From the NCBI GenBank assembly GCA_902812415.1, contig CADDZJ010000001.1, positions 62,001 to 126,000 on the forward strand: a DNA stretch of 64,000 bases. The letters are read 5' to 3'. Below, piece by piece: positions 43,779 to 51,436 of the stretch (within the stretch, counting starts at the first letter, position 1; every line of letters begins with the position of its first letter). The notes below the pieces were generated by a model that saw nothing but the letters and a program-made list of their open reading frames with translations, ran no database searches and was not told the DNA's origin. Origin of the DNA: Acidobacteriota bacterium (GTDB lineage: Bacteria; Acidobacteriota; Terriglobia; UBA7540). A program made the position numbers and the translations under genes.

Positions 43779-45047
43779 TCAAGGCCGGTCGATTGCGCAG
43801 CGAAATCCCACAGTGAGATCACTCATATCGTTCTCGCGGGCAAAACGGCGGGAGACGCGAAGGGATGCCGCCTCGCTTTCAAAAGATCCTCCGCGCGCCA
43901 CCGCCAGGTGATTTGAAGCAATGGGCAAAGGTTGCTCAACGCCAGCGCCTGTTGCTGGCGAATCCAGGTCATACTTGTTGTAGTAGCGGTCCAGAACCCA
44001 CTCAGCGACGTTTCCCAGCATGTCATAAAGACCAAAGGCGTTGGGCCGCTTCCTCCCCACGGCGTGCGGAGCGCCATTGCTATTGTCTGCGTACCAGGCG
44101 ATCTCAGGAACGACCCCGTAATACGGCTGAGGATTGCCGCCGCGCGCAGCGTACTCCCATTCCGCCTCGGTCGGCAACCGCCCTCCGACCGCAGCGCAAT
44201 ACTCTTTGGCCTGAGACCAGGTCACTCCGCTCGCCGGCAGATCACCATTACCCGCAGGCGATTCCAGACCATGCTTGGCCGCGTACTTTCGATAGGCGGC
44301 GATTGTCACCTCGGTTTGGCCAAGCCAGAATCCTCGGTCAATGACAACCGGATGTGCGGGTTTTTCGTCGTCTTTACATTCGTCATCCGCCGCCGAGCAG
44401 CCCATTGAGAACGTTCCGGGAGGTATCCAGACGTAATTCTTTTCATCGGCGGGATTCACCCACGTCTTCCAGCGTGGTGAGGTTACGGGATGGATGGACG
44501 ATGAGCCCGGGCCGCGAGTCTGTTCGGCCGATCTTCGCCACTTTCCATAAAAGATTATTCCGACAGCTAGTGCCAACCCGAGAATCGCCACAGCGAGCCA
44601 TCTTGGCCGTTGCTGGGATTGCGCCACGCGAAGTGGAACGCGCTCATCTCCAAGCGCATCCAGAACGGCCTGGGTCAGCCGCTTTAAGCTCTCGTCGGTG
44701 CAGCCCTCTGGGGCGTCAAGCCATTGAGTCATGGAGAGGAAATACTCCAGATCATCAGGCAAGGCCGCTGACGAAAGGCGAAACGGGATGATCCGCTTTT
44801 TGGCGTTGAATGCGTGGCCTACTTCGCTGAGGATATGGGGCGACGCCGCAGCGCGCTCGGTCAAAACCAGCGCCAGGACATGCGCGGAATGGATCGCTTC
44901 GACGATTGCTGCCGGAAAATCTGCGCCGGGTTCGATATCGCGAGGAGCGATCCAGCACAAAGCTCCGGCGCCTTCCACGGCGCTGCAAACGCGATCGGCG
45001 ATGGCCTTGTCGGCCGAGGCGTAGCTGATGAAAACCTGGTGGGCCAT
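43779..45047 (-). CDS. TIR-transmembrane-FGE (sulfatase-modifying-like) fusion protein
   Basis: A 422-residue, three-part protein. Residues 1-130 are a TIR_2 domain (VFISYASADKAIADRVCSAV, CWIAPRDIEPGADFPAAIVE). Residues about 146-168 are a transmembrane helix (WLAVAILGLALAVGIIFYG). Residues 200-420 are a formylglycine-generating-enzyme-like domain (WIPPGTFSMGCSAADDECKD; GGRLPTEAEWEYAARGG; LYDMLGNVAEWVLDRYYN). At the FGE active-site position RGGSFESEAASLRVSRR the two catalytic Cys are absent, so it is probably a binding rather than catalytic domain. TIR fused to FGE points to membrane signalling or defence; role unproven. Confidence 0.88.
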   Translation of the reverse strand: MAHQVFISYASADKAIADRVCSAVEGAGALCWIAPRDIEPGADFPAAIVEAIHSAHVLALVLTERAAASPHILSEVGHAFNAKKRIIPFRLSSAALPDDLEYFLSMTQWLDAPEGCTDESLKRLTQAVLDALGDERVPLRVAQSQQRPRWLAVAILGLALAVGIIFYGKWRRSAEQTRGPGSSSIHPVTSPRWKTWVNPADEKNYVWIPPGTFSMGCSAADDECKDDEKPAHPVVIDRGFWLGQTEVTIAAYRKYAAKHGLESPAGNGDLPASGVTWSQAKEYCAAVGGRLPTEAEWEYAARGGNPQPYYGVVPEIAWYADNSNGAPHAVGRKRPNAFGLYDMLGNVAEWVLDRYYNKYDLDSPATGAGVEQPLPIASNHLAVARGGSFESEAASLRVSRRFARENDMSDLTVGFRCAIDRP

Positions 45048-47552: not shown

Positions 47553-47608
47553 TTTCGTCTTTCGTCTTTCGTCTTTCGTCTTTCGTCTTTCGTCTTTCGT
47601 CTTTCGTC
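47553..47608. repeat. (TTTCGTC)8 heptamer tandem repeat
   Basis: Eight perfect head-to-tail copies of TTTCGTC. It sits about 20 bp upstream of a small frame with a good ribosome site (AAGGAG, ATG 47629). Because it is not in a coding frame, slippage here would alter spacing rather than reading frame. Confidence 0.95.
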
Positions 47609-47809: not shown

Positions 47810-48157
47810 GCTTGGCTCCCCCACTGCATTGCCGTCGAACAGTAAGACTCCCTCTGAGCGCACGGAGAAAGGTCAGGCGTCACAAACCTTCCTTTGTGGC
47901 AGCAAACCATTCCTCAAGAGGCTTACGTCTCGGAGATGAAATTCCAAGGTCTGAACGTCAGTCCCTTGCAAGTCTTATCCCGATTTCTGATGAGTAATGC
48001 GTTTGGACCGGGCGCGACAAGGCGCCCTCGCACCGGCCTTCCAAGGGTTCGGGGTCCAAAAATACTGAAGCCCGGCGCACAGACTACCTTGCTCTAACGC
48101 TTCCATGTTGCCTAATCACGATGCCGGTGTCAACGTCAGCCTTTGCTCAACGCTTTC

Positions 48158-48187
48158 TTGACGCTGCCCTCGGGCGATTCCTATAAT
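48158..48187 (+). promoter_or_regulatory. sigma-70 type promoter of the first VWA gene
   Basis: TTGACG (48158-48163), an 18-bp spacer and a perfect TATAAT (48182-48187). Translation starts at ATG 48197, only 9 nt beyond the -10 box, so transcription should begin within about 3 nt of the start codon. There is no ribosome site, consistent with a leaderless mRNA. Confidence 0.75.
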
Positions 48188-48196
48188 CAATCCGTG

Positions 48197-49177
48197 ATGC
48201 ACACTCGACGCGAAGCCAGGGGAACGATCGTGGGCATCCTCGTGGCATCGCTTTTATTTTTCCTGCCTGCGGCAAGCAAGGCGCAAGCTCAACAACCCGC
48301 TCAATCTTCGGCTTCTTCCCAACAGAACCCGCCGGAAGCGAAGAGGCCGATCAGGGTAAACGTCAACCTGGTGAACGTGCTGTTTACGGTCACAAACAAA
48401 AAGAGACACCTGGTGCTTGGGCTGACCAAAAACGATTTTCAGGTGTTTGAGGATAACAAGCCGCAGACCGTCACTTTTTTCGGGCAGGAATCCAACCTGC
48501 CTCTACGCATCGGCGTGCTGATTGACACCAGCAACAGCATCCGCGAGCGTTTGCAGTTTGAAAAGCAGGCCGCGATTGATTTTCTGAATACCGCTGTGCG
48601 TCCGGGGGAAGACGAGGCTTTTGTCGTGGGCTTCGATGTGGAGCCGCAACTGCTCCAGGATTATACCGACGATGTCAATAAGCTGAGCGACGCCATTCGC
48701 GATCTGGCAGCCGGGGGCGGAACCGGTCTGTTCGACGCCATCTATTATGCCTGCAAGCAGAAGATGATCTATTCTCCTCCTCCGCAGCCTTACCTGCGTC
48801 GTGTCCTGATCGTCATCAGCGATGGCCGCGACAACGAAAGCCAGCACTCGCTCGATGAGGCTCTGGCCATGGCGCAGCGCGCCGAGGCGACCATTTTTGC
48901 CATCAGCACGAATCGCAGCGGCATCGAAGAGCGAGGCGACAAAGTGCTGAAGGAACTCGCTGATCAGACTGGAGGGCGCGCCTTCTTCCCGTTTGAAGCG
49001 AGCGATCTGGCAGCCAGCTTTCAGGAAATCGCCAAGGAACTGCGCAGCCAGTATAGCCTTGCCTATATTTCCACCAACACCGTCCACGATGGCAGCTTCA
49101 GGCGCATCCGCATCAAGCCGCTCGAAAAGGGGCTGGTCGTTCGGGCCCGCGCAGGCTACTTCGCTCCCTCGCAATAA
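48197..49177 (+). CDS. exported VWA-domain protein (acidobacterial VWFA-related), copy 1
   Basis: A 326-residue secreted or membrane-tethered protein. Signal peptide (IVGILVASLLFFLPAASKAQ). A beta-sandwich stretch (VNLVNVLFTVTNKKRHLVLG, LTKNDFQVFEDNKPQTVTFF) precedes the VWA domain, whose MIDAS motif is DTSNS (RIGVLIDTSNSIRERL) with VVGFDVEPQLLQDYTDDVNK and VLIVISDGRDNESQ. The ending (SLAYISTNTVHDGSFRRIRI) is typical of Acidobacteriota VWFA-related proteins. I start at ATG 48197 because the promoter occupies the upstream alternative. A paralog lies at 49675. Probably a metal-dependent protein-binding surface factor. Confidence 0.9.
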   Translation: MHTRREARGTIVGILVASLLFFLPAASKAQAQQPAQSSASSQQNPPEAKRPIRVNVNLVNVLFTVTNKKRHLVLGLTKNDFQVFEDNKPQTVTFFGQESNLPLRIGVLIDTSNSIRERLQFEKQAAIDFLNTAVRPGEDEAFVVGFDVEPQLLQDYTDDVNKLSDAIRDLAAGGGTGLFDAIYYACKQKMIYSPPPQPYLRRVLIVISDGRDNESQHSLDEALAMAQRAEATIFAISTNRSGIEERGDKVLKELADQTGGRAFFPFEASDLAASFQEIAKELRSQYSLAYISTNTVHDGSFRRIRIKPLEKGLVVRARAGYFAPSQ

Positions 49178-49674: not shown

Positions 49675-50694
49675 TCACTGAGCCGGTGTGTAATAACCGC
49701 GCCTGGCCTGCACCTTATATTGACCATCGCGGACCTGCACGCGAATGCGGCGGTAGGAACCGTCGTGCGCTCGGTTGGTTGGCGTGTATCCCAGCAGGTA
49801 TTGAGTGCGAAGCTGGTCTGCAATAGCCTGGAAGGCAGCCGAAGTGTCCTTCTTGCGTGTCACTCGAATGACTTCGCCGCCGGTCTCTTCGGAGAGTTTC
49901 TTCAGAACAGAATCTCCCTGAAAGGCAAGGTTCCCTATACCATAAAAGGCGCGATCCACGATATCGATGGAATAGATGATCACATCCGCTTTTTGCGCCG
50001 CCTCGAGCGCAGCTTTCAGCGTCTCCTTGCTTCCCTGGTCCTCGCCGTCAGTCAGAAGGATCAGCACTTTCCGGCCCACCTGATTCTTCATCAAATCATT
50101 GGAGGCAAGCCATACCGCATCGTAGAGGTGCGTGGCGCCAGTGTGGGCAGCGGGATATGTGGACGGCAAAGGACCTTGCCCGCCGCCGTTGATCACCGTC
50201 TCATCCACGGCCTGGGTCAGGCGCGCAAGGTCGGGGGTGAAGTCCTGAAGCAGCTCCACCTCAATATCGAAGTGCAACACAAAGGCAAGGTCCTTGGGGC
50301 GAATGACCTCCTGAAGAAATGCATTGGCCTCCCGCTGCTCAATCGGGAGTACGCGCTGCTGGCTGGGGCTGGTATCCACCAGCATGCCGAGGGTCAGAGG
50401 GGTGTCTGTGGCGCGCGAGAAATAGCGGATCTGCTGCGGAACGCCGTCTTCCGTAATCTCGAAATCATTCTGCGTCAGGTTCGGAACCAGGCGCCCTTTT
50501 TTATCCCGAACCACGGCATAGACGTTTACAACCTCGGTCCGAACTTTCAGAACATGGGGCGAGGGCGCCTGCGACTGTTGAGTTCCTCCGAGAGCGGGGA
50601 ATACCAGCAGAGCAATGAATGCGGCCACGAACCCGCCACGCATGGGTCCGAAACCAGCATGGAAGCATGAAAAAAATAAGTTCCAGCGACGCAT
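49675..50694 (-). CDS. exported VWA-domain protein (acidobacterial VWFA-related), copy 2
   Basis: A 339-residue paralog of the gene at 48197. Signal peptide with a basic/aromatic start (GGFVAAFIALLVFPALGG). VRTEVVNVYAVVRDKKGRLV and LTQNDFEITEDGVPQQIRYF form the leading beta-sandwich. The VWA MIDAS motif is DTSPS (LTLGMLVDTSPSQQRVLP), followed by VLILLTDGEDQGSKET. The C-terminus YLLGYTPTNRAHDGSYRRIR matches the paralog's. A TAGGAGAAT ribosome site precedes ATG 50694. The pair faces each other and could act together at the cell surface. Confidence 0.9.
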   Translation of the reverse strand: MRRWNLFFSCFHAGFGPMRGGFVAAFIALLVFPALGGTQQSQAPSPHVLKVRTEVVNVYAVVRDKKGRLVPNLTQNDFEITEDGVPQQIRYFSRATDTPLTLGMLVDTSPSQQRVLPIEQREANAFLQEVIRPKDLAFVLHFDIEVELLQDFTPDLARLTQAVDETVINGGGQGPLPSTYPAAHTGATHLYDAVWLASNDLMKNQVGRKVLILLTDGEDQGSKETLKAALEAAQKADVIIYSIDIVDRAFYGIGNLAFQGDSVLKKLSEETGGEVIRVTRKKDTSAAFQAIADQLRTQYLLGYTPTNRAHDGSYRRIRVQVRDGQYKVQARRGYYTPAQ

Positions 50695-51020
50695 TGATTC
50701 TCCTACGATCTACCCTGGGTGGATGCTTGAAGCAGGCGCGGTGTTGCTCCAGAAGATTCAGCGTTCATCAGCGAGCGCGAGGCGACAACACGCGATTCGG
50801 ACGGATCGCGAAATCATCCTGAGCAGGTTTCAACGTCTTGATCGAGCGCTCAATCATTCTTATCCGACCAATGCAGAAAGTGAATCTCAAAAATTTTTGA
50901 GTCGCAGCTTCACTTTTTTCTTGACAAGAACATGAGCAATCACTATACATGGTGAGTGAATACGCGCTCCGCCAGCGCTTCGCTGACGGAAGAATTAGAA
51001 ATACTTGAGAGGAGAATGAA
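50695..51020. other. spacer ahead of the lysine-rich micro-ORF
   Basis: No ordinary gene is evident. It contains the promoter of the small transcription unit at 50921-50949, on the plus strand, and the upstream region of the second VWA gene on the minus strand. The 5' leader of the small transcript (about 50957-51020) has CGCCAGCGcttCGCTGACGG as a possible hairpin. Confidence 0.5.
50921..50949 (+). promoter_or_regulatory. strong sigma-70 type promoter of the micro-ORF unit
   Basis: Perfect TTGACA (50921-50926), 17-bp spacer and TATACA (50944-50949). It lies about 70 bp upstream of the micro-ORF and 140 bp upstream of a rho-independent terminator, so a transcript of about 170 nt is predicted. 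Confidence 0.75.
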
Positions 51021-51062
51021 ATGCCAGCTAAGAAGAAGGCAAAGACAAAGAAGAAGAGGTAA
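51021..51062 (+). CDS. 13-residue lysine-rich micropeptide ORF
   Basis: ATG 51021 encodes MPAKKKAKTKKKR and a stop, with ribosome site GAGAGGAG at 6-nt spacing. It is flanked by a near-consensus promoter and a strong terminator, so it is the only evident ORF of a short dedicated transcript. An overlapping ATG at 51016 would give an Arg-rich 23-residue frame but sits too close to the ribosome site. It resembles very small basic nucleic-acid-binding peptides; the transcript could instead act as an sRNA. Confidence 0.55.
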   Translation: MPAKKKAKTKKKR

Positions 51063-51089
51063 AAAGGCTTCGGAAAAGCCGATGTAAAG

Positions 51090-51126
51090 AACTCGGGGAT
51101 GCAGCGATGCATCCCCGAAGTTTTTT
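51090..51126 (+). terminator. rho-independent terminator of the micro-ORF unit
   Basis: AACTCGGGGATGCA (51090-51103) pairs with TGCATCCCCGAAGTT (51108-51122) around a GCGA tetraloop, followed by a TTTTTT run to 51126. The GC-rich stem and T-run make a textbook terminator. Confidence 0.9.
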
Positions 51127-51436
51127 AAGGGGCTTGTGAGGCGCGCAACGTTCGATGAGCAAGGCAGGAGAAGATTTGCCACGGAGAGCCCAGAGGATAC
51201 GGAGATAAGAAACTCTCTTCCTTCCGTGGCGAAATAATCGCGACGCCTGGAACCGGAAGTTTTCACAAGGTCTTCCTCAGATCGCTTGCCCTCGGAGCTC
51301 CGGGCTATTTTCAGGAAAGGACACATTGACCTCATTTCGAGGCATTCTGAGGGCGCGGCTTGGATTCATGGCTCCGGTTGCGTGAATATTTATCTTCCGA
51401 CTACAATGAGCGATCTTGACATGCCGGAGCGGCAGA

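Follow-up and report, generated by a model that had tools for sequence, protein, structure and literature searches.

Predicted lysine-rich micropeptide genes with dedicated transcription units recur in Acidobacteriota

Lysine- and alanine-rich, low-complexity sequence that is disordered by composition is found in the chlamydial histone H1-like proteins Hc1 and Hc2 and in the C-terminal tails of AlgP and PhaF. Hc2 measures 165 to 237 amino acids, varying by Lys-rich pentamers (PMC2848022), and AlgP, an H1-like Pseudomonas protein with KPAA repeats, is located on polyphosphate granules; DNA binding in vitro has been reported for KPAA-repeat peptides of its H1-like tail (PMC9239181). Here, we analyze a locus in a 4.8-Mb acidobacterial draft genome (G000) whose predicted product shares this composition and, as in Hc2 and AlgP, changes its repeat number among relatives by whole codons. 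Unlike H1-like proteins, which exceed 150 residues, the peptides of this family comprise 9 to 25 residues without a folded domain, are specified by mini transcription units of their own with at least two paralogs per genome, and score far under the curated cutoffs of the HC2 model. The locus also resembles leader peptides of amino acid biosynthesis in its tiny ORF, the abundance of one residue, and the intrinsic terminator that follows, but differs from attenuator leaders in that most relatives have no codirectional gene to be regulated and in that the peptide itself is conserved and ends in KKKR. Acido-1 and Acido-Lenti-1 (RF01686 and RF01687; PMC2864571) are likewise small structured transcripts of Acidobacteria; the window, i.e., the whole 64,000-nt stretch analyzed here, differs from them in matching no Rfam family at gathering score, and the part of that publication cited here claims no coding function for these motifs. 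Among open-licence papers, we found no description of Lys-rich small proteins in Acidobacteria.

The complete unit, consisting of promoter, ribosome site, ORF, and terminator, occupies positions 50921 to 51126 of the plus strand (Table 1). A sequence-only reading of the window had proposed a ribosome site, the MPAKKKAKTKKKR ORF, and a strong rho-independent terminator within this interval, all of which are directly legible. It had also called the promoter near-consensus, a description that fits the -35 element (6/6) better than the -10 (4/6): TTGACA-17-TATACA matches 10/12 consensus positions, and a strict promoter scanner omitted it because the -10 lacks the final T. The RNA predicted to span 50957 to 51126 folds at -52.7 kcal/mol, well below shuffled sequences (z = -4.35). 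A second ATG at 51016 opens a frame that overlaps the micro-ORF out of phase in the window (MKCQLRRRQ...); relatives mostly carry AATAGAATG, which identifies the start at 51021 as the conserved one.

Table 1. Features of the micropeptide unit, numbered from the first letter of the window
Feature	Position	Strand	Remarks
Conserved block TCACTTTTTTC	50910..50920	+	Abuts the -35 upstream; alignment of 34 family members is lost beyond it
-35 hexamer TTGACA	50921..50926	+	Read from sequence; kept in the family alignment
-10 hexamer TATACA	50944..50949	+	17-nt spacer; family consensus TATACAT
Predicted transcript, ~170 nt	50957..51126	+	Putative start site about 7 nt past the -10
5' leader hairpin CTCCGCCAG-loop-CTGACGGAAG	50968..50990	+	Pairing held by compensatory changes in relatives
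Ribosome-binding site GAGAGGAGAAT	51007..51017	+	Near-invariant across the family; Shine-Dalgarno AGGAGA at 51010-51015
Micro-ORF MPAKKKAKTKKKR, 13 codons plus TAA stop	51021..51062	+	Start ATG 51021; stop 51060-51062
Intrinsic terminator TCGGGGATGCA-GCGA-TGCATCCCCGA plus AGTTTTTT	51093..51126	+	Stem 51093-51118 with 11 pairs (7 G-C), kept via compensatory changes; T-tail to 51126

Using the 261-bp unit as a query against the 36 other genomes of the same GTDB family (Acidobacteriota, Terriglobia), we obtained nearly full-length matches in most; some matches were partial because contigs break at the unit (e.g., in G014). The alignment of 34 members begins ~11 bases 5' of the -35 element and stops past the T-run, with unalignable flanks on both sides. 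A covariance model built on this alignment from the TATA through the terminator, with the -35 box excluded (R1), matched the unit or its paralog in 37/38 family genomes, the single miss being a 57% complete assembly (G033). The same promoter-ORF-terminator pattern is thus present in related genomes, promoter and terminator being kept across the family, and further families of the phylum show the design as well. Conservation of the whole unit on this scale argues against chance.

The pattern of change within the unit points to constraint on the encoded peptide. ORFs of the 34 aligned members comprise 9, 10, 11, 12, 13, 15, 19, 22, 24, or 25 codons, all length changes being in frame, and their peptides always follow the pattern MxxKK...KKR and mostly read M(A/P)AKK...KKR, whereas spacings in the leader and the 3' part vary by non-multiples of three. 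Members of the same length exhibited 73, 59, and 289 differences at codon positions 1, 2, and 3, respectively, and 254 synonymous versus 75 nonsynonymous codon differences, pairwise and phylogenetically non-independent counts that amount to a strong indication and not to a P-value test. The commonest peptide, MAAKKKAKKKR, occurs in ten genomes in five distinct DNA versions. Trinucleotide slippage alone fails to explain the mixed AAA/AAG and GCA/GCG/GCC/GCT codons. Frame conservation in relatives, with its in-frame length changes and third-position bias, therefore agrees with the coding assignment of the sequence-only reading. Its proposal of a dedicated unit for a translated Lys-rich micropeptide stands as regards frame, promoter, and terminator, translation itself being a prediction from these signals. 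That the unit is a real gene is well supported, and an entire family of tiny, probably nucleic acid-binding peptides seems to have escaped gene finders.

The transcript could instead be the main product, either as a small regulatory RNA, with the ORF playing a secondary part, or as a dual-function molecule. Its predicted fold is stable, and among family members both the 5' hairpin and the terminator stem show high sequence conservation and retain pairing through two-sided, compensatory changes. However, the ORF is under strong coding constraint, Lys-rich ORFs persist while the leader changes between families and paralogs, and Rfam offers no match at gathering level; we consider an RNA product unlikely to be the main one and retain the micropeptide as the preferred product. 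A candidate stop-codon hairpin that the last codons may form with a downstream CTCTTC in the window type beat shuffled sequences but was no better than swapped partners.

A second unit, encoding MPAKKKAAKKKR, was located in the same genome (G000 contig C35, 7390-7579, minus strand; L135) with the layout CTTGACAAG-17-TACATA, leader, GGAGG, MPAKKKAAKKKR, and terminator. Most relatives also carry this second paralog, equipped with a promoter, hairpin, ribosome site, and terminator of its own, and family-wide it displays the conserved 3' sequence TTTCCTCCTTTCCCC and a GGCCCGC..GCGGGCC terminator. Two genomes (G001 and G450) have the second paralog and no full-length copy of the first type. There are at least two paralogs per genome; scans for a GGAG-ATG-KKK pattern were insufficiently specific for copy counts. 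The TTTCCTCCTTTCCCC sequence resembles the anti-Shine-Dalgarno end of 16S rRNA. A pairing between a CCTCCTTT-like 3' element and the ribosome site of the second paralog was considered and discarded: own combinations did not surpass swapped ones and were barely above shuffles. A diverged sequence (MACKTKPKKKR) directly downstream of the second paralog in G006 (L171:1836-2100, minus strand) is a possible third micro-gene.

Pfam and NCBIfam searches yielded only composition-driven matches below the cutoffs, and no family was reached. The best HC2 score (PF07382/NF038052), 19.2 bits versus a cutoff of 40, came from a 32-aa relative and represents a weak match to this histone H1-like family, and a further HC2 comparison gave 12.2 bits versus a cutoff of 135. 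HC2 matches were absent from the 38 family genomes, so that no longer H1-like homolog backs the function by association. The peptide lists do reveal the Lys/Ala-rich tail with a variable repeat number that is typical of H1-like function, and by analogy we favor a polycation that would bind nucleic acid or polyphosphate. We thus think it fairly probable that these loci form a micropeptide gene family whose products, like a free histone H1-type tail, bind nucleic acid or another polyanion electrostatically. In such a scheme, a sigma-70-type promoter would drive an mRNA of ~170 nt, the hairpin probably stabilizing its 5' end and protecting it; the strong ribosome site would lead to translation of a disordered, almost all-lysine peptide (9 to 25 residues in the window's family), and the dedicated terminator would close the transcript. 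By charge alone, the peptide would most likely neutralize and help condense nucleic acid or another polyanion, with DNA, ribosomal or messenger RNA, and possibly polyphosphate as candidates; expression level, binding, and physiological target are parts of this scheme that we infer. The Lys-rich composition fits many polyanion targets without singling out DNA, and peptides of this kind are not expected to adopt a structure or contain a domain.

Ribosomes contain very short, basic micro-proteins such as bTHX and eL41, and ribosomal proteins typically bear basic tails. The micropeptides are likewise very short and very basic, and their dedicated expression signals are apparently strong; they might accordingly be ribosomal or ribosome-associated, placing their lysines on rRNA. 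Unlike bTHX and eL41, however, they have no defined motif and vary strongly in length, the shortest having 9 residues and the longest well over 40, with Lys/Ala as the only common motif, and they occur as two or more paralogs per genome, in tandem in some families. We consider a ribosomal role unlikely, and electrostatic binding of a polyanion by a free tail is the function that we continue to prefer.

The upstream neighbor of the unit is a divergent VWA-domain gene that is kept in most family genomes, and a related VWA-like gene pair adjoins the micro-gene in much of the family. VWA-domain genes lie at 48143-49177 and 49675-50694 of the window, convergent to each other. Downstream, most relatives have a convergent RmuC-like gene and then a UvrD/Rep-like helicase gene (names read off the protein sequences), whereas in the window's genus this place is taken by a VTT-domain membrane protein gene on the same strand, starting at 51416. 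Such a codirectional gene, together with a Lys-run ORF ahead of a terminator, a layout general for amino acid attenuators, would suit a Lys-codon leader peptide whose attenuator acts on the next gene. Synteny contradicts this explanation: with a convergent RmuC-like gene next to it in most family genomes, the unit has nothing downstream to control and serves as no attenuator. Moreover, the second paralog and the out-of-family relatives mostly lie ahead of convergent or unrelated genes, and predicted RNA folding revealed no competing antiterminator structure. We regard attenuation as very improbable.

Across the phylum, R1 matched 59/396 genomes at E <= 0.1, and a Lys-rich ORF was present in 47 of the 49 R1 loci inspected outside the first type. 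ORFs of an Acidobacteriaceae-like family (f10) read MATKKKAKKKKKH and similar and adjoin a helicase gene that clusters with the helicase gene of the window's family, which suggests orthology; other families (f33, f38, and relatives) carry tandem pairs such as MAKKAKKAAKKAKKR/MAKKAAKKKAAKKAKKR. A broader model for the phylum-wide search (R2) matched 342/396 genomes at E <= 0.1, a figure that must be read with the model's richness in Lys codons in mind, as weak matches could be Lys-rich tails of ordinary proteins. All strong R2 loci inspected (20/20), mostly from previously unsampled families, contain a standalone Lys/Ala-rich ORF starting with MAKK, MATK, or similar. Out-of-family ORFs (MAKK..KKR) are mostly 13 to 45 aa long, and a Lys/Ala-rich example has been verified in about 35 GTDB families. 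Among 78 out-of-family micro-ORFs, a promoter-like site matching at 10 or more of 12 positions was found in 41% (1.5% of shuffles), TTGAC in 77%, and a terminator at 91% (21% of shuffles); the -35 box lies outside R1 and hence provides independent evidence for the loci found with that model. An accidental ORF in A-rich intergenic DNA between fortuitous promoter and terminator matches, an idea favored by the weakness of consensus scans by themselves and the ease with which short Lys runs are found, is refuted by family-wide conservation, synonymous bias, and the independent promoter and terminator enrichment, and its probability is negligible.

Tandem micro-genes ~160 to 250 bp apart were observed at L129, L132, L139, L147, and L152 and in relatives (f33, f38, and f48), flanked on one side by a gene cluster read as TPR-like and on the other by the gene for a HEAT-repeat protein whose end resembles a peptidyl-prolyl isomerase; the first micro-gene has a clear promoter, and the second is mostly without its own. 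Lys/Ala-rich ORFs of ~70 residues or more occur in the same setting at L210, L218, L221, and L222; the family thereby extends gradually into the length range of histone H1-like proteins.

If translated as predicted, the unit represents a coding gene of 9 to 13 codons that is deeply conserved, falls under the size usually kept by routine annotation, and appears across a phylum that dominates many soils. Tentatively, the unannotated Lys-rich micropeptide genes throughout Acidobacteriota, usually at least two per genome, might specify genetically encoded polyamines: free H1-type tails, reduced to 9 to 13 residues in the window's family, whose role would be to condense nucleoid, RNA, or polyphosphate. 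On this same tentative reading, the genes of the window's family would be among the shortest conserved bacterial protein-coding genes known. Translation of these units would show that bacteria possess H1-like basic tails in the form of free micropeptides with dedicated transcription units, and the loci with conserved promoter, start, stop, and terminator form a testable set for nucleoid, RNA, or polyphosphate condensation. A global smORF catalogue admits ORFs from 30 nucleotides (PMC11364881), and entries for some of these micro-ORFs may exist there unnoticed.

Three other features of the window were recorded. The 7-bp unit TTTCGTC is present in eight perfect copies at 47553-47608. A 66-nt inverted repeat (47075-47140/49352-49417; 86% complementary) contains GGCACGGGCGTCTCGCCCGTGCC and looks like a dispersed intergenic repeat. 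Finally, the minus strand at 43779-45047 encodes a protein that combines a TIR domain at its N terminus with a C-terminal sulfatase-modifying-factor (FGE) domain.
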